A stretch of 43,315 nt of DNA from Acidobacteriota bacterium (GTDB lineage: Bacteria; Acidobacteriota; Vicinamibacteria; Vicinamibacterales; UBA8438), in the NCBI GenBank assembly GCA_021296515.1, contig JAGWAH010000007.1, forward strand, positions 17,817 to 61,131, in the 5' to 3' direction. A program made the position numbers and the translations under genes. Below the pieces are notes generated by a model. That model saw nothing but the letters and a program-made list of their open reading frames with translations, made no database searches and was not told the origin of the DNA. Within the stretch, counting starts at the first letter, position 1. Each line of letters begins with the position of its first letter. Below, in pieces: positions 26,908 to 38,585 of the stretch.

Positions 26908-27543
26908 TCACCGGTCCACCCGCATCACCTCCGCGCGACGCAGCAGACCGGCGAGCCAGCCCTCGACCAGCGCCGCACGGCGGTCCGTCCAGAGGTCTTC
27001 CCGGACCCGGTCGCGCACGGCCTCGAACGGAAGCTCCTCTCCGTCTTCCAGGAACCGCGCGCGGTGCGCATCGTAGTGGGTGCGCAACTGCGCCTCGGTC
27101 AGCCGGCCGGGACCTCCGAAACGACCCGCCACATACTCCTCGACGCGGATGTCGTCCCGCAGGATCTGCCGCAGATCGTCCACCCCGATCCCGACCGTCG
27201 AGAGGAAGCGGGCGAACGCGGCGGGGTCGGCGAAACGCGCTTGCACGGCCGCCACGTCGCGCTCGACGCGGGCCGGCGGAGGTGAAGCCTGACGGTATCG
27301 ATTGACCTCGTCGAGGGCGAGCCGGCGCTCGATCAGCCGGCTCAGGGCCGCCGCTTCCCGAGCCGCGGGCTCCCGATCGCGGACGTTCCACAACCCCCGC
27401 TCATGCAAGCCGAGATCGAGGAACGCCCGCACGTCCGAAGCGAGAATCACCTGCCCGGACACCACGGCGAGCACCCGGTCGAGGGCTTGGGCCGCCGGGC
27501 CGGACGGCCAGCCGAACAACACGAGCAGCAGGCAGAACAGCAC
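26908..27543 (-). CDS. SurA N-terminal-like periplasmic chaperone lacking a parvulin domain
   Basis: GTG 27543 opens a signal peptide (VLFCLLLVLFGWPSGPAAQ). LDRVLAVVSGQVILASDVRAFLDL follows, the typical start of SurA/PpiD-type chaperones, then helical sequence with LSRLIERRLALDEVNRY and a C-terminal LPFEAVRDRVREDL helix that closes the SurA core. At 211 residues there is no parvulin (rotamase) domain; SurA of E. coli has two. It begins 17 bases after the BamA-like stop, in the same direction, which suits a chaperone for outer-membrane proteins. Function is inferred from the fold signature and neighbours. Confidence 0.7.
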   Translation of the reverse strand: MLFCLLLVLFGWPSGPAAQALDRVLAVVSGQVILASDVRAFLDLGLHERGLWNVRDREPAAREAAALSRLIERRLALDEVNRYRQASPPPARVERDVAAVQARFADPAAFARFLSTVGIGVDDLRQILRDDIRVEEYVAGRFGGPGRLTEAQLRTHYDAHRARFLEDGEELPFEAVRDRVREDLWTDRRAALVEGWLAGLLRRAEVMRVDR

Positions 27544-27559
27544 GCTGACGGACCGGCGG

Positions 27560-30517
27560 TCAGAACGCCTGCCCGAAGCTGAAGTGCAGCGCCATGAGCT
27601 GCTCCTGTTGCGGGCTCGTCTCGTCACCGAAGAAGTGCCGCTCACCGAGCTTGAAGCCGATGTCGAACCCCAACGGCCCAACCGGCGAGTTGTAGCGCAC
27701 GCCGAACCCGGCGCCGCTCCGGATGCGGCCGAGACTCACGTGCTCCACTCGATCATAAACGTTCCCCGCGTCCACGAACGTGACGACGCCGATCGCCGGG
27801 GTCACGCGAATCCGCAACTCGCTGTTGAAGATGATCACGGCGTTGCCGCCCTGCGGGAAGCCGGCCTGGTCGATGGTGCCCCCGGTCTGGGTGCGGGGGT
27901 TGCCGAGCCGGTCCAGGGCGAACCCGCGAACCGTGGTGTTCCCGCCCGCGAAGAACCGCTCGCTGATCGGCAGCGCGAGCGAGCTCGCAGCCTCGACTCG
28001 TCCCTCCCGGGACGCGTCGAGGGCGTCGGGGGCGTCGAGGGCCTGCGGAAACCCCCAGGCCACGCCCAGACGCGCGCCGGCCGCCAAGACGATTCTCGGA
28101 ACGCCGGGCAGCCGACGATACACCGACCCGGAAAGAAAGCTCTTCGAATAGCCGACCTCCGAGCCAATCGCGCGCGCGGCCACCTCGGACTCGAGCGTCA
28201 CCAGGGTTCCGCGGGCCGGCTCGACGGGATCGTCACGGGTGTCGCGCACCTGACTCGCGCTGAACGACGACAGGCGCACGTTGGGAAACAGGCGGTCGAC
28301 GATGTTCTCGTCCTCGGGGTTCAACTCGCGGTTGGACGTGTCGTTGTTGCCGAGACGGTAGCCGATGGAGGTGCCCGTCGCCACTCCCGACGAACGCGTC
28401 ATCTGCGCCGTCACGCCCCGGCTGAAGAGATCGAAACCGGGACGGATCGCCTGCTCGACGAAACCCGACATCTGCACGTCCCAGTCGCGCCCGATCGCCC
28501 GCGGCTCGCGATAGGTGGCGAGCACGCGATACTCGTTGAACCCGAACGCGCCGCCGGTCTCCACCGGTGCGAACAGAGGTGGGTCGTTCTTGCGCCGGAC
28601 GCTGACGCGCGTGAACAGGTCCAGCGAGCGATTCCTGCCCCACAGATTGCGGCGGCCGATCTCGAAAGAGCCGCGCGGTGCGAACTCGATCCGCTCGACC
28701 GCCTGGCTGCCCGCCGCCCGGACCTCCCGCCGGAGCCGCTGCGACAGCTCGAACCCGCCCCCGTAGGCGAGCCGGGTCGCCGCCGCCTCCTCGACCTCGA
28801 TGATCACGTCCCGCCGATCGGAGCGGCCGTGACTGAACTCGCGGATGTCGAGCCGCCGGAACATGCCGAGCGCGTTGAGGCGGCGGCGCGTCTCCGCGAC
28901 GTCGTCGAGCCCGAGCGGGGCCCCCGGAACCAGCGTGACCTCCCCGCGAATGGTGGCGCTGTCGACCGTCCGGTTGCCCACGATCAGCACGTGGTCCACC
29001 AACACCTGGTGGCCCTCGGCAATCCGGAAGACGAGATCGACCGTGCTCAGATCGTCGGCGAACCGCGCATCCAGGATCACCTGCGCCTGCTCGTACCCCT
29101 CGTTCAGATACGACTCCAGAAGGGCGTCTCGATGACGCTCGATCTGAGGCCCGTGGTACGCGTCGCCGGGACGCACATCGACCACCTGCTGCAGGACCGC
29201 AGAGGATTGGGCCGACCCGACGAACGTCACCTCCCCGATGATTGTCCGCACCCCTTCGTCGATCGCAATCTCGACGCGCTGCTCCACCACTCCGTCCTCG
29301 CGGCGCCCACCCGTGCCGCTGAAAGAGCGGACGGCCCTCACCGTGGCGAAGCCGAGACGGCTGTAGTGCTCCTCGATGGCGGCCAGACCCGCATCGATCT
29401 CCCGGACGACGAGGGGTGCGCCGGCCTCCACGCCGAGAATGGAGCGGACCTGGTCGTCCGAAACCGCCTGATTCCCGCGCGTGACGACGTCGCGGACGCG
29501 ATACAGCGGGCCGCGCGTCACGCCGAAGACGATGGAGAGCCGATCCGCGTCGCCGTCGCGCGTGTGGGTCACCGCGGCGTCACGATAACCGAGCGCCTGC
29601 AGGTGCCCGGCAATGCGCCGGTCAGCGTCTTCGAGAAGGTCTTCGTCGACGCTCGCCTCGCGAGCGACCGGCACCAGGTCGGCCAGCCGCGCGCCCGGCA
29701 CTTGGTCACCCTCGAACGTCACCTCGACCCGCGGCCCGCGCCGAATGGCGAGCCGCACGTCGACCTCGACGTCGCTCAGCCGCTGGATCTCGTGCGACAG
29801 CCGGGCCTCGTAATAGCCGCGCCGCCGCAGATCGCCCTCGTAGTCGCCGAGCCGCTGCGTGATCTCCACACCGTCGTAGGGCGTCCCGGGACTGCGAAGA
29901 CCGAGCCGGGTGCGGATCGTGTCGTGGAACACCGGCGACTCGCCGGTGATGTGCCAGCGCCGGACGACGGCACGCGGCCCGGCCTCGATCGCCATCCGCA
30001 GAACACGCCTCGAAACGGGCCCGCTGATCTCGAGGCGCACGCGTGCAGTGAAGAAACCGCGTTCGGCGTACGCCCTGCGCACGGTGTCCTCGACCGCGGC
30101 GGCATCGCCGGCCGGGAACGTCGTCCCGTGGCGCTGGGAGACGAAACGGCGCAGCCACTCCTCCGGTACGCCGCGCACCCCGGTGAACTCGACCCGGTTC
30201 ACCGTCTCGAGTGACTGCAGGTCGTAGACCAGCGCGACCCCGCCGCGCCTGTCGCCGGCGCCTACCTCGACGCTCCTGAAGAGGCCGAGACTGAACAGAT
30301 GCGCCAGCGACTCGCGGACCTCCCGCATCGACAGCGGCTCGCCCGGCCGCGTCTCGACGAGTTCACGGGCGGTCGGATCGTCGAACGGCCGGCCGTCCGC
30401 CGTCAACCGCACCTCGACGACGTTCCGTCCGACGTAGCGGTCCACGTCGCGCGCGGCCTGCGCGGGAGCGGCCGTCCAGCAGAGACCCGCGAGCAGCCAG
30501 AACGCCCATCCACGCAT
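27560..30517 (-). CDS. BamA/TamA-family outer-membrane protein assembly factor (Omp85), seven POTRA-like repeats
   Basis: The 985-residue protein has a signal peptide (MRGWAFWLLAGLCWTAAPAQA), a long periplasmic part and a C-terminal 16-strand-type barrel (Bac_surface_Ag) over roughly the last 400 residues. I count seven POTRA-like units, each ending in a GYY/GFF-type strand: near VEVRLTADG, VNRVEFTGV, VRRWHITGE, VEVTFEGD, YRVRDVVTRGN, IIGEVTFVG and LVDHVLIVGN. Classic BamA has five and TamA three. The barrel has FFAGGNTTVRGFALDRLG (the VRGF/Y motif of Omp85 lid loops) and ends MALHFSFGQAF with the terminal Phe beta-signal. Its ATG overlaps the tamB stop (TGATG), so it may serve as the TamB partner, the main BamA, or both. 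Confidence 0.88.
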   Translation of the reverse strand: MRGWAFWLLAGLCWTAAPAQAARDVDRYVGRNVVEVRLTADGRPFDDPTARELVETRPGEPLSMREVRESLAHLFSLGLFRSVEVGAGDRRGGVALVYDLQSLETVNRVEFTGVRGVPEEWLRRFVSQRHGTTFPAGDAAAVEDTVRRAYAERGFFTARVRLEISGPVSRRVLRMAIEAGPRAVVRRWHITGESPVFHDTIRTRLGLRSPGTPYDGVEITQRLGDYEGDLRRRGYYEARLSHEIQRLSDVEVDVRLAIRRGPRVEVTFEGDQVPGARLADLVPVAREASVDEDLLEDADRRIAGHLQALGYRDAAVTHTRDGDADRLSIVFGVTRGPLYRVRDVVTRGNQAVSDDQVRSILGVEAGAPLVVREIDAGLAAIEEHYSRLGFATVRAVRSFSGTGGRREDGVVEQRVEIAIDEGVRTIIGEVTFVGSAQSSAVLQQVVDVRPGDAYHGPQIERHRDALLESYLNEGYEQAQVILDARFADDLSTVDLVFRIAEGHQVLVDHVLIVGNRTVDSATIRGEVTLVPGAPLGLDDVAETRRRLNALGMFRRLDIREFSHGRSDRRDVIIEVEEAAATRLAYGGGFELSQRLRREVRAAGSQAVERIEFAPRGSFEIGRRNLWGRNRSLDLFTRVSVRRKNDPPLFAPVETGGAFGFNEYRVLATYREPRAIGRDWDVQMSGFVEQAIRPGFDLFSRGVTAQMTRSSGVATGTSIGYRLGNNDTSNRELNPEDENIVDRLFPNVRLSSFSASQVRDTRDDPVEPARGTLVTLESEVAARAIGSEVGYSKSFLSGSVYRRLPGVPRIVLAAGARLGVAWGFPQALDAPDALDASREGRVEAASSLALPISERFFAGGNTTVRGFALDRLGNPRTQTGGTIDQAGFPQGGNAVIIFNSELRIRVTPAIGVVTFVDAGNVYDRVEHVSLGRIRSGAGFGVRYNSPVGPLGFDIGFKLGERHFFGDETSPQQEQLMALHFSFGQAF

Positions 30518-33500
30518 CAGAAAGCATGCCGGACCCGCACGTCGAGCGCGTAGGTCCGGTCTTCGTTCTGCGACAGGACCCACGACAGCCGTTCGGTCGC
30601 GTCGTACTCGAAGACCACGATGAGGTCCTGGTTGCTGCCGCTGACGGCGCGGGAGAAGGTCAGGTGCGCCCGGTCGGAGATGCGCTTGCCGATCAGCACG
30701 CGCGCGGTCGGGACGAGCTGCGTCGATTGCTGGGCCGCCGGATCGTCGAGGGACGGCGTGATCTCGAAGGTGTCGACGCCGAACGACCGCTCCACCACTC
30801 CCCCGACCTCCGCCAGCACGGGATTGTTCAAGAGGCCCGCCCCGATGCCCTGCATCAGCAGCCCCTGCTGAGACGCCTCGGGCGCCCGCAGGGTGCGGAT
30901 CTCGGCCTGCTGCGGGTCCCGGACATCGCCCAGCAGCAACCCGACGATCTCGAACTGCTGCAGCGGCGGATCCGACTCCAGCGTCGGCGGCTCCAGCCGA
31001 TCGAGCGGTCCGGTGAGGCCCAGCGTGATGCGGTAGGTCTGACCCGGAACGCGGATGTCGGTCTCCGCCTCGACATCGAGGAACGGCTCCATCGCGACGG
31101 GGTTCGTGAATCCGACGCTGCCGCGGGTCAGCCGATACCGGTTGCCCTCGAAGTAGACCTGGCCGCGCTCGATCTCCGCGTTGCCGAGCAGGGACGGCCG
31201 ATCGTACGTGCCGGTCAGGGTCAGGTCGGCGCTGGCGACGATCTGGGCCCGGTTGTCCGAGATGCGAAGGCTCGAGGGTGCCGAGATGCGCAGATCGAAC
31301 CGCAGGGGCAGGGTGGTTTCCGCCGCACCGGCCGCGGTCTCGTTGCCCATCAGATTCATGAGGCCGCCGTCGGACTCGAACAGCTCCAGCCAGATTGCGT
31401 CCTGCACGGTCACGAGCCCCCCCAACGTCGGAGCATCGACGGATCCCTGCAGAATCAGTTCCGCATCGACGCGGGACCGAATGCCCTCCGGGTAGCGCAG
31501 AGAGATGTCCCGGCCGGTGGCGGTCACACCGAGCTCGCCGAGGCGGTAGCCCTGCAGCCCCACCCGGCCGCCGAAACTGACCGGACCGCCGCCGAGCTCC
31601 GCGGTCAGCTCGTCGAAGCGAATCCCGCCCGGTTCCAGAATCACGCGGCCATTGACCACGTCCAGTGCGTGCGGCAGCGACAGATACCGGACCCGGCCGT
31701 TCGTCACGCGAGCCTCGCCGGTGACGACAGGTGCGTCGAGCGAGCCGCCGATGTCGGCCGCGAGCCTCATCGATCCGCGGCTGCGCACGTCGGGAATCAG
31801 GCCCTCGAGAATGCCGAGCCCGGCATTGCCCTCCGCACGCAGTGCCAGCCGCTCGTCGGCCAGCGTCACTTCGCCCGCCAGCTCCAGATTCGTCCCCTCG
31901 CCCCGCAGCCGCATCCGGTCGACGTGCACCGCGTTGTCGGCGAGAGAAAGACGGACCGGGCCGTCGTTCTCCAGCTCGAAGTCAAACACCGTCAGCGCGA
32001 GACGATCCGCCCGGACGTCGACTCCGAGACGCGCGAGGTCGAGCAGCTCCCCGTCGACGGTGACGGTGCCGCTGGCCACCAGCGCCGTCATCTCCGACAA
32101 CCCCGGCTGCAGGGCGCGCGCGAACGGGTCGAGCCGGGTGTTGGTCAAGCTGAAGCGAAACCGGGCGGGCACCTCGTCCACCAACCCGATGCGGCCGGAG
32201 CCGGAGACCGCGACGTCCGGCGACGCCGCCTCCAGCTCTACGCTCATCACGGCTCCCGCGACGTCGAGACGTCCCGTCACCTCTCCGACCGCAGCGCCCG
32301 CCATGGTCACGTCGGTCATCGTGCCCCGGATCTCGTAGCGCGGGTCGGCGAAGGCGCCGGCGCCCGAGATGGCGGCGTCGATGCGTCCGGCGGCGGCCAC
32401 CGGAACGCGCTCCACCATCCGCGACGCGGAGAGCTGCAGGTCGCGGGCATCGGCCGTGACCGAGTAGGTGCCGTTCCACTGCACGTACATCGCCCCGGTG
32501 ACCTCACCGCCTCCCTGCCGTACGGTCAGGCCGTTGAGCCAGACGCCGTCGCCGTCGAACCGGAGGTCGGCCTCCGCTTCGTCGAAAGACTCTCCGTAAG
32601 CCAGGCCTGCGCCCAATCGCATCCGACCGAAGCCGAGCGGTGCGCCGTAGTCTCCGTACAGGCGGATCTGGCCGTACGTCGGGCCGTCGATGGTGTAGCC
32701 CTCCAGCTCGAAGGCGTCGCGGATGTACTGGGCCGGCAGTGCGTCGACCTCGAACCGGGCATTGATCTGCTCGCGTCCGGAACGCGCCGCACCGATGGCG
32801 AAGCGGCCATTGACGGCCAGACTCGACCCCGCCTGGCGAAACCGGGCGCCCGCAACCTCCAGCATGGAGTCCTCGACGACGATGTCCCCCTCGCCGCGGC
32901 CCCACTCGACGTTCCAGGCCTCGATCGCCTCGCCGGCGAAAGCCGCCTCGATGCGCGGCGACGTCAGCGCCCCCAGCATCGCGCCGGTCATCGTCCCGCG
33001 GCCGTCGATCGTCAGATCGCCGGTCGAACGCCCGAACGCGGTCATGACGGCGGCCATGACCCGATCGCTCTCCTGCCAGTCCGCGCTGGCGACGTGGAAC
33101 GGAATCCTCGACCGCCTGCCCCAGGCGGTGCGGCCCGAGAAAGTCATTGCCGTCAGAGGCGTCGCGAACCAGCTCGGGGCAATGTCCACGCCGTCCGGCT
33201 CGAACGTGAACTGCATGTCTCCACCGAACGGAAACCGCCACGGATCCGCAGCAGGCCGGAACGGTTGTGCGTCATGGGGCCACCCCTCCCGCGGCTCCGG
33301 CAGCCCGCCCCGGGGCAACAGGGCGACTCCCGCCGGCGGCGTGACCGACACTTCGCCGCGGCCCTGCCGCTCCGCGAACCGGCCGAGCGGCCATGCCAGG
33401 CTCAGCTCGCCCGCGAGGCTGCCCCGGGGACGCGCTCCGGGCACGTCCAAGTCGTCGAGCAGCGGCTCGAGGGCCGCCCCTCGTACTTGCGGAGTGAACG

Positions 33501-34896
33501 TGGCGATGCCGGGCTCCGGGACCCCCAGCGGCTTCATCGCGTAGGTGAAGTCGAGCTCGCCGCCGTAGAACCCGGAGTGCGCCTGCGTGATCTCGAGGCG
33601 GTCGCGGGTCCAGACCAGATCGCCCTCCAGCTCGGGAAAGCCGAGTCCCGCAAGCGTGGCGTCCGCGCTGGCGAACGAGCCGGTCAGCTCCCGCCCGCCC
33701 TCGAACAGATGCCACACACCGTTGAACGCGGCCTCGCCGGTGACCGTGAAGTTGTCCCGCGCGAAGAAGATCTCCTTCATCGCCGGCAGGTCGATTGCCA
33801 TCTGCCGAACGTTGTAGGTCGACTCCGGCCAGTTCAGCATGTCGACACGGCCGTCGACCCGCGCCGTGAAGCCACGGTCGGCGGCCCACAGATCGATGTG
33901 CGTCAGGTCGACCAGACCGCCGTCGAGCACGTAGTCGGCGTCCATGTTCAGCGTCATCGGTTCGAAATCGCCGATGACGAGCGTCCCGCCCCGGAACTCG
34001 GCCGTCCCACCGTAGCCGGTGGATTTCCCCAGCGTCATGTCGATGTTGGGCGCGGTGATGCTCCACGGCGCCACGTGGTCCTCGTACACGAACTCTCCGT
34101 CGTAGGCGCGCAGGTGCTGCACCGTGGTGACGAAGATCCGGCCCTCTTCCCCTTCCTCCGCCACGGGTGCCGTGGCACCGGTATCGCCCGCGGAGAGTGT
34201 CGCGTCGGCTCCTTCGGCGCCGTCCGCCGGCTGGACGAACCTCGGAAAGCTCTGCCGCCCGTCGGAGAAAGACTCGACCAGCATGCGCCAGCCGCTCAGC
34301 TCGACGGCGTCCACGAGCACCTCGCCGTGCAACAGGGGCACCCACTCGGTCGAGATCTCGATGCGGTCCACCTGGAAGAACGGACGATCGCCGGGATTGA
34401 GGCCTCCGATCTCCAGGTCTTCGATCAGGAAGCGGCCGGGCGCCAGGTAGGTGCTCAGACGGCCAATCGTGACCGACCGCTCGATATAGCCGGCGAACGC
34501 CCGCTCGGCCTGCGCGCGCAAGCTGGGGCCGAGGTCGATGGTGGTCACCGACACGATGCTGCCTGCAATGAGCGCCACCACGGCGATGGTCGTCCACACG
34601 AGCGACCTGCGCACCCCCGGCCGCAGGCGCCGGACCCAACGCCAGCGCAGGGGGCGCAACCCCAGCCGCCTCACCTGGCGTGCCCAAACGGCGAGGAGCG
34701 TGTTGGCGGGAGATCGCGTGTCACCGGTCTGCCGTGGGCGCATCCAACGCGCGAGAATGGCGGCCGCCCGGGACACGACCGCCTTCACCGCGGGCGCGGA
34801 GTTGGCCCGCTTCGCTGCGGGCCGCTCCGTCAGCGGCTGCTCCGCGGCCGGCGCGGCGAAGAGAACGCTACCGGGACGCGACAGCTCATCTGACAT
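30517..34896 (-). CDS. tamB: TamB-like translocation/assembly protein (DUF490, AsmA-like)
   Basis: The 1459-residue protein has one N-terminal membrane helix (about 98-118, LVWTTIAVVALIAGSIVSVTTI) after a basic cytoplasmic stretch. A very long beta-rich, repetitive periplasmic region follows, then the C-terminal DUF490/TamB domain (GLQGYRLGELGVTATGRDISLRYPEG, LRISDNRAQIVASADLTLTGTYDRPSLLGNAEIERGQVYFEGNRYRLTRGSVGFTNP split across the domain). It ends ALDVRVRHAF with a terminal Phe. TamB-type proteins bridge inner and outer membranes and take part in lipid transport and outer-membrane protein assembly. The next gene, one base overlapped, encodes the Omp85 partner. The start at 34896 leaves a longish N-tail; a shorter start is possible. 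Confidence 0.88.
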   Translation of the reverse strand: MSDELSRPGSVLFAAPAAEQPLTERPAAKRANSAPAVKAVVSRAAAILARWMRPRQTGDTRSPANTLLAVWARQVRRLGLRPLRWRWVRRLRPGVRRSLVWTTIAVVALIAGSIVSVTTIDLGPSLRAQAERAFAGYIERSVTIGRLSTYLAPGRFLIEDLEIGGLNPGDRPFFQVDRIEISTEWVPLLHGEVLVDAVELSGWRMLVESFSDGRQSFPRFVQPADGAEGADATLSAGDTGATAPVAEEGEEGRIFVTTVQHLRAYDGEFVYEDHVAPWSITAPNIDMTLGKSTGYGGTAEFRGGTLVIGDFEPMTLNMDADYVLDGGLVDLTHIDLWAADRGFTARVDGRVDMLNWPESTYNVRQMAIDLPAMKEIFFARDNFTVTGEAAFNGVWHLFEGGRELTGSFASADATLAGLGFPELEGDLVWTRDRLEITQAHSGFYGGELDFTYAMKPLGVPEPGIATFTPQVRGAALEPLLDDLDVPGARPRGSLAGELSLAWPLGRFAERQGRGEVSVTPPAGVALLPRGGLPEPREGWPHDAQPFRPAADPWRFPFGGDMQFTFEPDGVDIAPSWFATPLTAMTFSGRTAWGRRSRIPFHVASADWQESDRVMAAVMTAFGRSTGDLTIDGRGTMTGAMLGALTSPRIEAAFAGEAIEAWNVEWGRGEGDIVVEDSMLEVAGARFRQAGSSLAVNGRFAIGAARSGREQINARFEVDALPAQYIRDAFELEGYTIDGPTYGQIRLYGDYGAPLGFGRMRLGAGLAYGESFDEAEADLRFDGDGVWLNGLTVRQGGGEVTGAMYVQWNGTYSVTADARDLQLSASRMVERVPVAAAGRIDAAISGAGAFADPRYEIRGTMTDVTMAGAAVGEVTGRLDVAGAVMSVELEAASPDVAVSGSGRIGLVDEVPARFRFSLTNTRLDPFARALQPGLSEMTALVASGTVTVDGELLDLARLGVDVRADRLALTVFDFELENDGPVRLSLADNAVHVDRMRLRGEGTNLELAGEVTLADERLALRAEGNAGLGILEGLIPDVRSRGSMRLAADIGGSLDAPVVTGEARVTNGRVRYLSLPHALDVVNGRVILEPGGIRFDELTAELGGGPVSFGGRVGLQGYRLGELGVTATGRDISLRYPEGIRSRVDAELILQGSVDAPTLGGLVTVQDAIWLELFESDGGLMNLMGNETAAGAAETTLPLRFDLRISAPSSLRISDNRAQIVASADLTLTGTYDRPSLLGNAEIERGQVYFEGNRYRLTRGSVGFTNPVAMEPFLDVEAETDIRVPGQTYRITLGLTGPLDRLEPPTLESDPPLQQFEIVGLLLGDVRDPQQAEIRTLRAPEASQQGLLMQGIGAGLLNNPVLAEVGGVVERSFGVDTFEITPSLDDPAAQQSTQLVPTARVLIGKRISDRAHLTFSRAVSGSNQDLIVVFEYDATERLSWVLSQNEDRTYALDVRVRHAF

Positions 34897-34906
34897 CGGT
34901 CGCTTG

Positions 34907-35434
34907 TCACTCGATGGCAGCCAGCAACCGGCCGGCCTCTACCGACATGCCTTCGGTGACCGGCACCTCTGTGACAGTGCCGGCCCGCGGGGCGCCCAGC
35001 TCGTTCTCCATCTTCATGGCCTCGACGACCACCAGCGGCTGGCGGGCCTCGACCTGGTCGCCGGGCGCCGCCAGAACCCGCACGACCTTGCCCGGCATCG
35101 GAGCGACGAGTCGCGACGCGCCGCCCGCTGCGCCGCCGGGGGCATCCCCGGCCGCCCGCCGGCCGTTGATCACCGCATCGACGATCACGTCGCCGAGGTG
35201 CACCCGCGTCAATCCGTTCCGGCCGGTCGCCACGCAGCGCACCTGCCGGCTCGCGGCGCCGGCGCCGACCCGCACGAGCGACAGCAGCATCCCATGCCGA
35301 TCGCGCTCCACGAGGCGCGCATCGACCTCCCGCGTCGTCCCGTCCCACGACACGTGCACGCGTCCGGGGCGCGCCGCGTCCGGCTCGACGCTGACGTCGC
35401 GTACGTTCCCGTTGACCTCGATCTCGATTCGCAT
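34907..35434 (-). CDS. biotin carboxyl carrier (biotinyl/lipoyl-attachment) protein
   Basis: The 175-residue protein ends in a biotinyl domain with the attachment motif VVEAMKMENEL (Lys modified) and the turn APMPGKVVRVLAAPGDQVEARQPL typical of acyl-CoA carboxylase and decarboxylase carriers. The first 100 residues form a small beta domain (MRIEIEVNGNVRDVSVEP) like the BT domain before the biotinyl domain in propionyl/methylcrotonyl-CoA carboxylases. ATG 35434 is preferred; a TTG nine bases earlier is also in frame. It is 12 bases after accC, and with the carboxyltransferase at 37080 completes a three-part acyl-CoA carboxylase. Confidence 0.9.
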   Translation of the reverse strand: MRIEIEVNGNVRDVSVEPDAARPGRVHVSWDGTTREVDARLVERDRHGMLLSLVRVGAGAASRQVRCVATGRNGLTRVHLGDVIVDAVINGRRAAGDAPGGAAGGASRLVAPMPGKVVRVLAAPGDQVEARQPLVVVEAMKMENELGAPRAGTVTEVPVTEGMSVEAGRLLAAIE

Positions 35435-35446
35435 GCCGGACAACGT

Positions 35447-36964
35447 CTATCGTAGTCCCTCGACCCGCGCCGCCTGCTTCCAGCGCCCGCCGGCCGCCGT
35501 ACCCGCGGCGGGGCCGGCGCCGGCTGCCGCGCGTCCCAGCGTGACGGACAACGCCGCGGCGATGACGGCAAGCTCCTCGGCGTCTTCCGGCGGATCGACG
35601 AAATCGGTTCCGTCCCTTCCGGCCAGCACGCGGTCGAGAAACGTGGTGTCGAAGCGCGCGGCGACGAAGTCGGCATGACGGAGCAGCCACCGGAACATCG
35701 GAACGGTGGTCGGGACGCCGCCGATGTCGTATTCCGCGAGGGCGCGGTCCATGCGGTCGATGGCCAGGCGGCGATCCGCCGCGTGGGCGATCACCTTGGC
35801 CACCATCGAGTCGTAGTGCACGGGCACCTCGAAGCCGGCCGCGACGCCGGCGTCGACGCGGATGCCCGGACCCTCGGGCGGACGATGCGTCTCGAGCAGT
35901 CCGGGACACGGCATGAAGCCCGCGTTCGGATCCTCGGCATAGACCCGACACTCGATGGCGTGGCCGTCCGGCGCGAGGGCCCGCTCCGGATCGACGTCCA
36001 GCCGCTCCCCCTGCGCGACCCGGAGCTGCCAGCGCACCAGGTCGATGCCGGTCACCATCTCCGTGATCGGGTGCTCGACCTGCAGCCGGGTGTTCATCTC
36101 CAGGAAATAGAAGCTCCCCGACTCGTCGAGCAGGAACTCGATGGTGCCGGCGTTCGTGTACCCGACCTCGGCGGCCAGCCGGGCCGCGGCCGCCGCAAGC
36201 CCGCGCCGGGTCTCGATACCGACCACCGGCGACGGCGTCTCCTCGATCACCTTCTGATGGCGCCGCTGAATCGAGCACTCCCGCTCGACGAACGGCACCA
36301 CGCCGCCGTGATCGTCCGCGAGAAGCTGCACCTCGATGTGCCGGCCCCGCTCGATGCAGCGTTCCAGGTAGACGGCGCCGTCGCCGAAGGCCGAAGCCGC
36401 CTCCGACCGCGCGCCCTGGATCGCGCGCGGCAGGCCTTCGGGCTCGCGCACCAGCCGCATCCCCTTGCCGCCGCCGCCGGCGACCGCCTTGACGAAGAGG
36501 GGATAGCCGATGGCGTCGCCGGCCGCTTGCAGCTCGGCCTCCGTAGCCCCGTCCGGCAACGGTCCGCCGCTTCCCGGCACTATCGGCACGCCGGCCCGGC
36601 GAGCCGCTTCGCGCGCCGCGGTCTTGCCGCCCATCAGCTCGATGACCCCGGCAGGCGGGCCGATGAACTTGAGCCCCGCGTCGGCGACGGCCTGGGCGAA
36701 CCCGGCGTTCTCGGCGAGAAACCCGTACCCCGGATGCACCGCGTCGGCGCCGGTCCGGCGCGCCGCGGCAATGATCTTCTCGACGTGCAGGTAGCTGGCG
36801 GCCGGCTCGTCCGCCTCGAGCGCCACCGCCTCATCGGCATAGCGGACGTGCGGCGCCAGCCGGTCGCAGTCGGAGTAGACGGCGACCGTCGGCAGTCCCA
36901 TCTCGCGGCACCCGCGCATGATTCGGACCGCGATCTCGCCGCGGTTGGCGATGAGCACCTTCAT
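35447..36964 (-). CDS. accC: biotin carboxylase subunit of an acyl-CoA carboxylase
   Basis: The 505-residue ATP-grasp enzyme carboxylates biotin on its carrier with ATP and bicarbonate. Signatures are MKVLIANRGEIAVRIMRGC, VHPGYGFLAENAGFAQA, KFIGPPAGVIELMGGKTAAR, the glycine-rich loop GGGGKGMRLV, ERCIERGRHIEVQLLADD, CSIQRRHQKVIEETPS, and FYFLEMNTRLQVEHPITEMVTGIDLV. It is longer than AccC of E. coli (about 450) and like the biotin carboxylase part of propionyl/methylcrotonyl-CoA carboxylases. ATG 36964 has AGGAAAG upstream; a longer in-frame start is less likely. The preceding 115 bases to the carboxyltransferase gene hold nothing I can name. Confidence 0.93.
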   Translation of the reverse strand: MKVLIANRGEIAVRIMRGCREMGLPTVAVYSDCDRLAPHVRYADEAVALEADEPAASYLHVEKIIAAARRTGADAVHPGYGFLAENAGFAQAVADAGLKFIGPPAGVIELMGGKTAAREAARRAGVPIVPGSGGPLPDGATEAELQAAGDAIGYPLFVKAVAGGGGKGMRLVREPEGLPRAIQGARSEAASAFGDGAVYLERCIERGRHIEVQLLADDHGGVVPFVERECSIQRRHQKVIEETPSPVVGIETRRGLAAAAARLAAEVGYTNAGTIEFLLDESGSFYFLEMNTRLQVEHPITEMVTGIDLVRWQLRVAQGERLDVDPERALAPDGHAIECRVYAEDPNAGFMPCPGLLETHRPPEGPGIRVDAGVAAGFEVPVHYDSMVAKVIAHAADRRLAIDRMDRALAEYDIGGVPTTVPMFRWLLRHADFVAARFDTTFLDRVLAGRDGTDFVDPPEDAEELAVIAAALSVTLGRAAAGAGPAAGTAAGGRWKQAARVEGLR

Positions 36965-37079
36965 CGGCAGTTCGTCTTTCCTATCGTACTGCACGAGCGG
37001 CGCCGGATCGCACCGGGTCTGCTTCCCTCGTTCGCGCCGCTCCGTGGCGGGACCGTCCGGGCAGGCCGGGGCGCGGGCG

Positions 37080-38585
37080 TCACAGCGGGATGTTGCCGTG
37101 CTTCTTCGGCGGGTTGCGGTCCCGCTTGCCGTCGAGGCTGCGCAGGGCCGCGATGATGCGCGGGCGGGTCGTGCGGGGCGCGATGACCTCGTCGAGGAAA
37201 CCGCGGCCGGCGGCGACGAAGGGGTTGGCCAGCTTGTCGCGGAACTCCTGCACCTTCGACGCGCGCAGGGCTTCGGGATCCTCGGCCGCGTCGAGCTCCC
37301 GCTTGTAGAGAATGTTCACCGCCCCCTCGGGCCCCATGACCGCGACCTCCGCGGTCGGCCAGGCCAGGTTGACGTCGGTGCGGATGTGCTTGCTCGCCAT
37401 CACGCAGTAGGCGCCCCCGTAGGCCTTGCGGGCGACCACCGTCACCTTCGGCACGGTCGCCTCGGCGAACGCGTAGAGCAGCTTCGCCCCGTGCTTGATG
37501 ATGCCGCCGTACTCCTGCACCGGCACGTCCTCGAACGTAACCAGCGGTAGGTTGAACGCGTCGCAGAAGCGGACGAACCGCGCCCCCTTGATCGACGCGT
37601 CGATGTCGAGCGCTCCGGCCAGGTGCGCCGGCTGGTTCGCCACCACCCCGACCGGCTGCCCGCCGAACCGCGCGAAGCCGACCACGATGTTGGGCGCGAA
37701 GTGCCGGTGGACCTCCAGAAAGTCGCCGTCGTCTCCCACCGCGCGAATCAGGTCGAGCATGTCGTAGGGCTGGTTCGGGGACTCGGGCACGAGGGCATCG
37801 AGCTGCGGGTCCTCCCGGTCGATCGGGTCGGCCGTCTCGATGCGCGGCGGATCGTCGAGGTTGTTGGAGGGCAGGTAGCCGAGCAGCAGGCGCAGCAGCC
37901 CCAGGCAGTCCTTGTCGGTCGGGACCGCGAAGTGGGCGGCGCCGCTCTTCGCGTTGTGGGTCATCGCCCCGCCGAGCTCGTCCTTGGTCACCTCCTCGTG
38001 GGTGACGGTGCGAATCACGTCCGGCCCGGTGACGAACATGTAGCTGGTCCCCTCGACCATCACCGTGAAGTCGGTGATGGCCGGGGAATAGACGGCTCCC
38101 CCGGCGCACGGTCCCATGATGGCCGAGAGCTGCGGGATGACGCCGGAGGCGAGCGTGTTGCGCAGGAAGATGTCCGCGTAGCCGGCCAGCGAGGCGACCC
38201 CTTCCTGGATCCGGGCGCCGCCCGAGTCGTTGAGGCCGACCACCGGCGCGCCGTTCTTCATCGCCAAGTCCATGATCTTGACTATCTTCGCGGCGTTCGT
38301 TTCCGACAGCGATCCGCCGAACACCGTGAAATCCTGGGCGAACGCGTAGACGAGGCGCCCCTCGACCTCGCCGTGGCCGGCCACCACGCCGTCGCCCGGC
38401 ACGAGCTGCGTCTCCATGCCGAAGTCGCGGCAGCGGTGGGTAACCAGCTTGTCGATCTCGCGAAACGTGCCGGGATCGAAGAAGAGGTCGATCCTGCCCG
38501 CGTCGTGCTGCCGCCGTTGCCGGGCCTCGCCGCCGCCCGTTTCCGCACGCCGCTCGTAGTCCGCCAGCGTTTCCAGTCTGTCCAT
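37080..38585 (-). CDS. pccB: acyl-CoA carboxylase carboxyltransferase subunit (propionyl-CoA carboxylase beta-like)
   Basis: The 501-residue protein is a complete two-crotonase-fold carboxyltransferase: [13 protein letters not shown]-like [67 protein letters not shown], and the second half with [51 protein letters not shown] and [13 protein letters not shown]. It ends [15 protein letters not shown], the tail usual in PccB. The enzyme would make methylmalonyl-CoA (or malonyl-CoA) with the accC and carrier proteins encoded next. Substrate choice between acetyl- and propionyl-CoA is not settled here. Confidence 0.92.

Follow-up and report, generated by a model that had tools for sequence, protein, structure and literature searches.

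A conserved tamB-omp85-SurA-like gene cassette in Acidobacteriota, and related proteins that carry TamB and Omp85 in one polypeptide

The DNA examined here, called the window throughout, is a stretch of 43,315 nucleotides from an Acidobacteriota bacterium of the order Vicinamibacterales (contig JAGWAH010000007.1 of assembly GCA_021296515.1), and this report deals with a cassette of three genes on its minus strand that encode a TamB protein, an Omp85 protein and a small SurA-like protein. The first gene, tamB (30517..34896), encodes P0003, of 1459 amino acids. The second, omp85 (27560..30517), encodes P0001, of 985 amino acids, with seven POTRA domains and a barrel of 16 strands in the structural model. 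The third gene (26908..27543) starts with GTG and encodes P0002, of 211 amino acids, in which profile comparison suggests a SurA N-domain and a C-terminal helix. The TGA of tamB and the ATG of omp85 overlap by one base, and 16 bases separate omp85 from the GTG of the SurA-like gene. An earlier interpretation, which we call the sequence-only reading, had described three coupled genes with this overlap and this gap, and both its coordinates and its spacing were reproduced. In the Pfam scan, the Omp85 and SurA-like frames carried 22 and 46 extra N-terminal residues, respectively.

The TamB protein was assigned by Pfam PF04357 with an E-value of 2e-39 (136.4 bits against a cut-off of 22.4), and its TamB (DUF490) domain covers residues 1097-1445 (30562..31608). 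It has an AsmA/DUF748-like N-terminal part, and inspection of the translation points to a hydrophobic stretch at residues 98-117 (34546..34605) as a candidate inner-membrane anchor. The C-terminal stretch, residues 1448-1459 (30520..30555), ends in phenylalanine, which is the last residue in 54 of 60 TamB proteins of the split form (TamB and Omp85 encoded by separate genes), the one of the window included. A single-sequence search with TamB against the PDB gave no match.

For the Omp85 protein, Pfam reported POTRA with 180 bits in five stretches, POTRA_2 in addition, and Omp85 with 128 bits. The sequence-only reading had suggested seven POTRAs, and this count was borne out by profile comparison and by structure prediction. 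Proceeding from the N-terminus, the repeats are P1 (residues 24-104, 30206..30448), P2 (103-183, 29969..30211), P3 (183-264, 29726..29971), P4 (263-341, 29495..29731), P5 (340-428, 29234..29500), P6 (427-506, 29000..29239) and P7 (505-583, 28769..29005), and they are followed by the barrel (585-985, 27563..28765). We compared the seven segments by hhalign, using profiles of 61 rows (the window protein and same-order orthologues), together with five control segments from the barrel. P2 to P6 matched one another at 96-100% (P2 with P3-P6 at 97-99%, P4 with P2, P3, P5 and P6 at 96-97%), P1 matched P5, P6 and P7 at 89-95%, and P7 matched P5 and P6 at 94-97%, while the barrel controls did not exceed 2%. 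Some distant pairs (P1-P2, P1-P4, P4-P7) gave no match, so that the seven repeats are linked through P5 and P6. A POTRA profile made from the seven aligned segments found seven repeats in 61 of 61 Omp85 rows, a result that is partly circular because the profile was built from those very segments; on outside controls it found five in Escherichia coli BamA, where five are known, and two in E. coli TamA, where three are known. The AlphaFold2 model, computed from an alignment of 51 rows that were mostly relatives with TamB and Omp85 fused (see below), shows the order beta-alpha-alpha-beta-beta seven times over residues 32-577 and then 16 strands (mean predicted local distance difference test, pLDDT, 85.0; predicted template modelling score, pTM, 0.60). 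The window Omp85 thus has seven complete, genuine-looking POTRAs; in Heinz 2015 (PMC4494059), the genuineness of an inner POTRA in such proteins was left open.

The window Omp85 scored 71.6 with the NCBIfam model for TamL (cut-off 400), and POTRA_TamA_1 gave 20 bits, under the 26 needed, the three-POTRA layout of TamA not being the one found here. When the models of the window Omp85 and of a fused relative were searched with Foldseek, BamA chains came top by E-value; in the rows shown, the target template modelling (TM) scores were 0.62-0.73 for Pseudomonas aeruginosa TamA, while those of BamA did not exceed 0.63 and those of E. coli TamA 0.54. Since E-values and TM-scores favour different families, the fold does not decide between TamA and BamA. 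A scan of viral contigs with this Omp85 gave seven pattern matches and no relative.

The third protein had been described as a SurA-like core without parvulin, and this description holds. The window protein and 20 orthologues have in common an N-terminal part of SurA type and a helix at the C-terminus; what lies between them is short or absent. When the profile of these 21 rows was compared with the PDB, the top five matches were four SurA entries and one peptidylprolyl isomerase entry (E 0.0007-0.008), and the C-terminal part gave a weak match to the end of the periplasmic protein 3rgc (E 0.04). E. coli SurA carries parvulin domains, whereas none was found by Pfam in the window protein at E 0.01; in one orthologue (L112), positions 1-37 of a rotamase model were matched below the threshold. 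Judged from these profiles, the window protein appears to be a SurA core that lacks parvulin. A longer frame was seen in a deltaproteobacterial locus (L218:14757-15791, plus strand), about 3.5 kb after an Omp85 gene: its 345 residues align with the start and the end of the SurA-like profile, leaving a gap in the middle, and it is perhaps a SurA with a middle domain.

The conservation of the cassette was evaluated in 80 genomes of the same order, all of which had some Omp85 match; in 72 of them the best match reached E 1e-90 or better. The surroundings of omp85 were analysed for 60 of the 80 genomes. In 59 of these 60 loci, tamB lies just upstream on the same strand, and the remaining locus is cut by its contig; the estimated gap between the two genes has a median of 11 bases (range -27 to 278). 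A linkage of this extent indicates that the arrangement of the window is not due to chance. The SurA-like profile matched in 57 of the 60 loci: in two of the others (L061 and L085) the contig ends just past omp85, and the third (L095) has no such gene. With a weaker single-sequence search the gene was found in 55 loci, in 54 on the same strand and in one (L106) next to omp85 on the opposite strand; among the 54, three lie 0.8-0.9 kb beyond omp85, and four alignments, probably overstretched, begin inside the omp85 frame. Outside the order, a sample of 16 hand-chosen loci from the phylum showed tamB near omp85 on the same strand in 15 (upstream in 13, one of them 1.7 kb off, and downstream in two) and a SurA-like gene in 13. 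In two of these loci (L247 and L248) the order is omp85, SurA-like gene, tamB, so that the SurA-like gene stays after omp85 when tamB switches side. The coupled gene order is therefore conserved, and the parvulin-less SurA-like gene is a conserved, and apparently new, third member of the cassette. Ten bases upstream of tamB, on the same strand, the window also carries genes for a biotin carrier, a biotin carboxylase and a carboxyltransferase (34907-38585).

The sequence-only reading had suggested that these genes may form an integrated machine combining the roles of the translocation and assembly module (TAM) and of the beta-barrel assembly machinery (BAM). This part of it was not sustained. 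The genome of the window (3.3 Mb in 158 contigs, 88% complete) has a separate canonical bamA, in whose product Pfam marks four POTRA stretches. This gene immediately precedes an OmpH/Skp gene and a FabZ-LpxA frame, and its product falls in the BamA branch of our tree (support 100/99), outside the branch of the cassette Omp85. There are also two parvulin genes, one for SurA (SurA_N and rotamase, one parvulin, 354 amino acids) and the other for a PpiD-like protein. Both a second BamA and a parvulin-bearing SurA, for which a genome search had been proposed, were thus found, and the cassette is an addition to BAM and SurA. Against its own claim the sequence-only reading had set a separate bamA beside skp and lpxD together with a POTRA count of three to five; the bamA beside skp is present, with no lpxD seen there, whereas the count here is seven. 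A replacement for BAM, or a merger with it, would have the seven-POTRA Omp85 do the general work of BamA, and TamB and the small SurA would be its accessories. The linked SurA-like gene agrees with this, as does the score of the Omp85 with the BamA model TIGR03303, which falls barely under the cut-off (278.3 against 297.15). However, with bamA-skp and a parvulin SurA in the same genome and the cassette Omp85 outside the BamA branch, we rejected this candidate and consider it very improbable. As side observations, the canonical bamA (L005:4247-7174, plus strand) carries a low-complexity insert, rich in Asn and Gly, ahead of its last POTRA, FabZ and LpxA appear to share one open frame downstream of skp (L005:7986-9233, plus strand), and the search for Omp85 proteins in this genome also returned a patatin-Omp85 (L003).

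The search of the order also gave long open frames. Twenty of them were fetched (L038-L057): 19 span 2,158-2,489 residues, while the twentieth is truncated by its contig at 1,704. The four that were scanned run from a TamB domain through POTRAs to Omp85 in a single frame, and all 20 genomes also carry a split orthologue. When a fusion was used as query on 199 genomes of the phylum, at least 46, counted by eye, had a stop-free match crossing from TamB (query residue 1302 or earlier) to the POTRAs (1548 or later). A further scan of named contigs, aimed at fusions, gave 80 loci, and in 55 of these (L148-L201 except L188, plus L207 and L222) both domains lie in one frame. The 51 fullest frames, with a near-whole TamB profile, have a median length of 2,223 residues; the shorter ones include frames cut by a contig end. 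Long antisense frames occur in these GC-rich genomes, and for this reason domain matches, not frame length, were taken as evidence of fusion. An assembly artefact was considered and ruled out, since 55 of the 80 named loci have a frame of comparable length, including that of a cultured DSM strain. In the window's own genome no fusion was found at its 88% completeness, the tamB of the window being its sole TamB-family match.

The carriers are mostly acidobacterial metagenome assemblies; by their deposited labels, two are Aminicenantes, one is Cyanobacteria and one is Acidimicrobiia. The cultured strain is the gammaproteobacterium Povalibacter uvarum DSM 26723 (L182), with a fusion of 2265 amino acids, which also has BamA and a TamA-like Omp85. 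Among 117 genomes drawn from its order it alone had a match reaching E 1e-30, which suggests that this fusion was gained by transfer. In this strain the fusion gene and a patatin gene (L182:15621-17933, minus strand) converge; the far end of the patatin gene is weakly Omp85-like, and its product is perhaps PlpD-like. Three genomes (G046, G026 and G258) have two separate fusion genes each. Around four fusion loci, no shared partner was found among the nine neighbour proteins scanned, and seven of the eight flanking genes, roughly picked, lie on the opposite strand. No SurA-like gene was found in the 20 fusion loci of the order, and in the 80 named loci it was found only in L205 and L218, neither of them a fusion locus; contig ends truncate many of the loci searched. 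Full-text literature searches, which did not cover subscription papers, preprints or domain databases, returned no report of a TamB-Omp85 fusion, and proteins of this composition may well have database entries.

Of the 49 fusion frames longer than 1,900 residues, 44 have a hydrophobic stretch at the N-terminus, and three of the five frames without it begin at a contig end. The profile used to count POTRAs had been tuned to the split form; it found five in 35 of the 55 fusions, four in 19 and three in one, but never six or seven. When the five POTRAs of fusion P0004 (F1 to F5) were compared with those of the window, the best matches were F1 with P3, F2 with P4, F4 with P6 and F5 with P7; F3 was best with P6, with P2 and P5 close, and was assigned to P5 by order. 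F1-F5 are thus collinear with P3-P7, and P1 and P2 have no counterpart in the fusions. Between the end of the TamB profile and the first POTRA match there are 17-40 residues in the 52 fusions measured. A model of the C-terminal 1,200 residues of one fusion (51 rows; mean pLDDT 82.1, pTM 0.73) shows in succession two helices and six strands of the TamB end, a link, five POTRAs and a barrel, with the link and part of the second helix under pLDDT 50. Six strands and two helices are also reported for the C-terminal domain of E. coli TamB (PMC12800296). In the last TamB strand of 51 fusion rows there is Arg-His in about 71%, Phe in 71% and then Gly in 96%; the C-terminus of split TamB is similar, but the His-Phe spacing differs.

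The relationship between both forms was analysed with a tree of 66 rows, hand-chosen for spread, over the last two POTRAs and the barrel (drawn with a midpoint root; the letter composition of several rows is unusual). Twenty-one fusions form one branch (98/96) and 28 split forms another (96/87), and the two are joined at 99/94, apart from BamA. The sequence-only reading had taken the TamB neighbour of Omp85 for its likely partner; the linkage in the order and the existence of fused relatives both agree with this, and a sister clade of natural TamB-Omp85 fusions makes a physical pair of the two proteins very likely. For the fusions themselves, the most likely role is that of a natural one-chain TAM. 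They might instead be cleaved after export into TamB and Omp85, so that no one-chain machine would exist, an alternative that concerns these relatives and not the window. The link is short in all the fusions measured, frequently Ala-, Pro- and Arg-rich in those rows that were printed, and of low confidence in the model (residues 440-450), all of which would suit cleavage. Nevertheless, the open frame is retained in 55 of the 80 named loci and in a single tree branch, and the absence of P1-P2 is what would be expected if docking were replaced by a covalent link, so we regard cleavage as unlikely.

Taken together, these findings make it likely that a TAM of two proteins, with a chaperone of its own, is encoded in the window and works beside a normal BAM and SurA. 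TamB would be anchored in the inner membrane and span the periplasm, its C-terminal domain docking on the Omp85, whose seven-POTRA arm would extend into the periplasm. The small SurA-like protein would be a dedicated holdase that serves this TamB-Omp85 machine and delivers unfolded outer-membrane proteins to the POTRA arm. The cargo could be outer-membrane proteins, phospholipids or both, and the machine would act alongside BAM and SurA, not instead of them. In E. coli, POTRA1 of TamA is required for TamB binding (PMC4525385), and in Borreliella the DUF490 domain of TamB binds the POTRAs of BamA (PMC11361582). The simplest reading of P1-P2 is that they aid docking and are made needless by a covalent link. 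It should be noted that the association of the fused form with the absence of P1-P2 and of a linked SurA-like gene is a correlation across two branches, which counts as one event.

Several observations weigh against this proposal. By name the Omp85 is not a BamA, its score staying below the cut-off given above, nor a TamA (NCBIfam score 89.7 against a cut-off of 625), and E. coli TamA does not group with the cassette Omp85 in the tree, although E. coli TamA lies on a long branch, so that its position is unsure. The SurA-like assignment is weak by Pfam (SurA_N_3, PF13624, 17.2 bits, below the cut-off of 27.2). In 8 of the 80 genomes of the order the Omp85 matches are weak or partial at best, and 3 of the 16 phylum loci have no SurA-like gene; two of these three (L246 and L252) have seven POTRA matches. 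The SurA-like protein is therefore not indispensable to a seven-POTRA arm, and a tight coupling of P1-P2 with its gene is not claimed.

A different division of labour would make the cassette mainly a phospholipid bridge, with TamB as the conduit, the Omp85 as a mere dock and the SurA-like protein as an assembly factor for this Omp85 alone. The AsmA-like parts of TamB fit this picture, and E. coli TamAB has been reported to move phospholipids (PMC12800296). It is also in line with the SurA-like gene remaining with omp85 in L247 and L248, with tamB on the other side, and with its not being found around the fusions in the loci searched, many of which are cut by contig ends. Seven complete POTRAs, however, seem more than a dock requires, and SurA-type N-domains are holdases for many outer-membrane proteins, which also weighs against a bridge; we hold it to be distinctly unlikely. 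Extending the proposal of a TAM with its own chaperone to the phylum, Acidobacteriota may run two divergent TAMs, a split one that has a seven-POTRA Omp85 and a parvulin-less SurA of its own, and a one-chain form of about 2,200 residues that would reach from the inner membrane to the barrel, P1-P2 being a discarded docking adaptor for TamB, the small SurA or both. This wider scheme is tentative, and we put its chances slightly short of even.

These proteins bear on how TamB hands over cargo to its outer-membrane partner, a question that the fusions address. For E. coli TamAB, pairing between the final strand of TamB and the first barrel strand is described (PMC12800296). A fixed one-to-one natural chain, with a POTRA 17-40 residues past TamB and no P1-P2, offers a direct test of this hybrid-barrel model, and one carrier is a cultured strain. 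The SurA-like protein, in turn, would be a chaperone devoted to one Omp85 machine.

Compared with known systems, the cassette shares with E. coli BAM and SurA a POTRA arm with a barrel and a putative chaperone of SurA type; E. coli BamA has five POTRAs and no TamB beside it, whereas the window Omp85 has seven and an adjacent tamB. Heinz and Lithgow 2014 (PMC4104836) distinguish ten Omp85/TpsB subfamilies, which have the same Omp85 barrel with varied N-terminal parts; in the available part of that paper no TamB/DUF490 part was seen among them, 'DUF490' occurring 0 times, 'TamB' once, in the introduction, and 'fusion' once, outside that part. The TamL-TamB pair of Bacteroidota also joins TamB to an Omp85 partner, but TamL is a lipoprotein (PMC12045153). 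E. coli TAM is likewise made of TamB and an Omp85 from neighbouring genes, with TamB ending in an aromatic residue; there TamA has three POTRAs (PMC4104836) and tamA precedes tamB, while in the window the Omp85 has seven, tamB comes first and a chaperone gene is added. The system in Heinz 2015 (PMC4494059) is a duplicated acidobacterial BamA proposed as the origin of TamA: it too is a second Omp85 besides the canonical BamA, with seven POTRAs in some cases and linked to TamB in an operon, but its order is given as BamA-TamB. In the sections of that paper available to us a SurA-like third gene is not mentioned, and in its main text 'fusion' or 'fused' occurs 0 times. The split cassette is thus an acidobacterial TAM-type module of the kind reported in 2015, and the one-polypeptide form of about 2,200 residues, in which TamB and Omp85 are a single chain, appears to be new.

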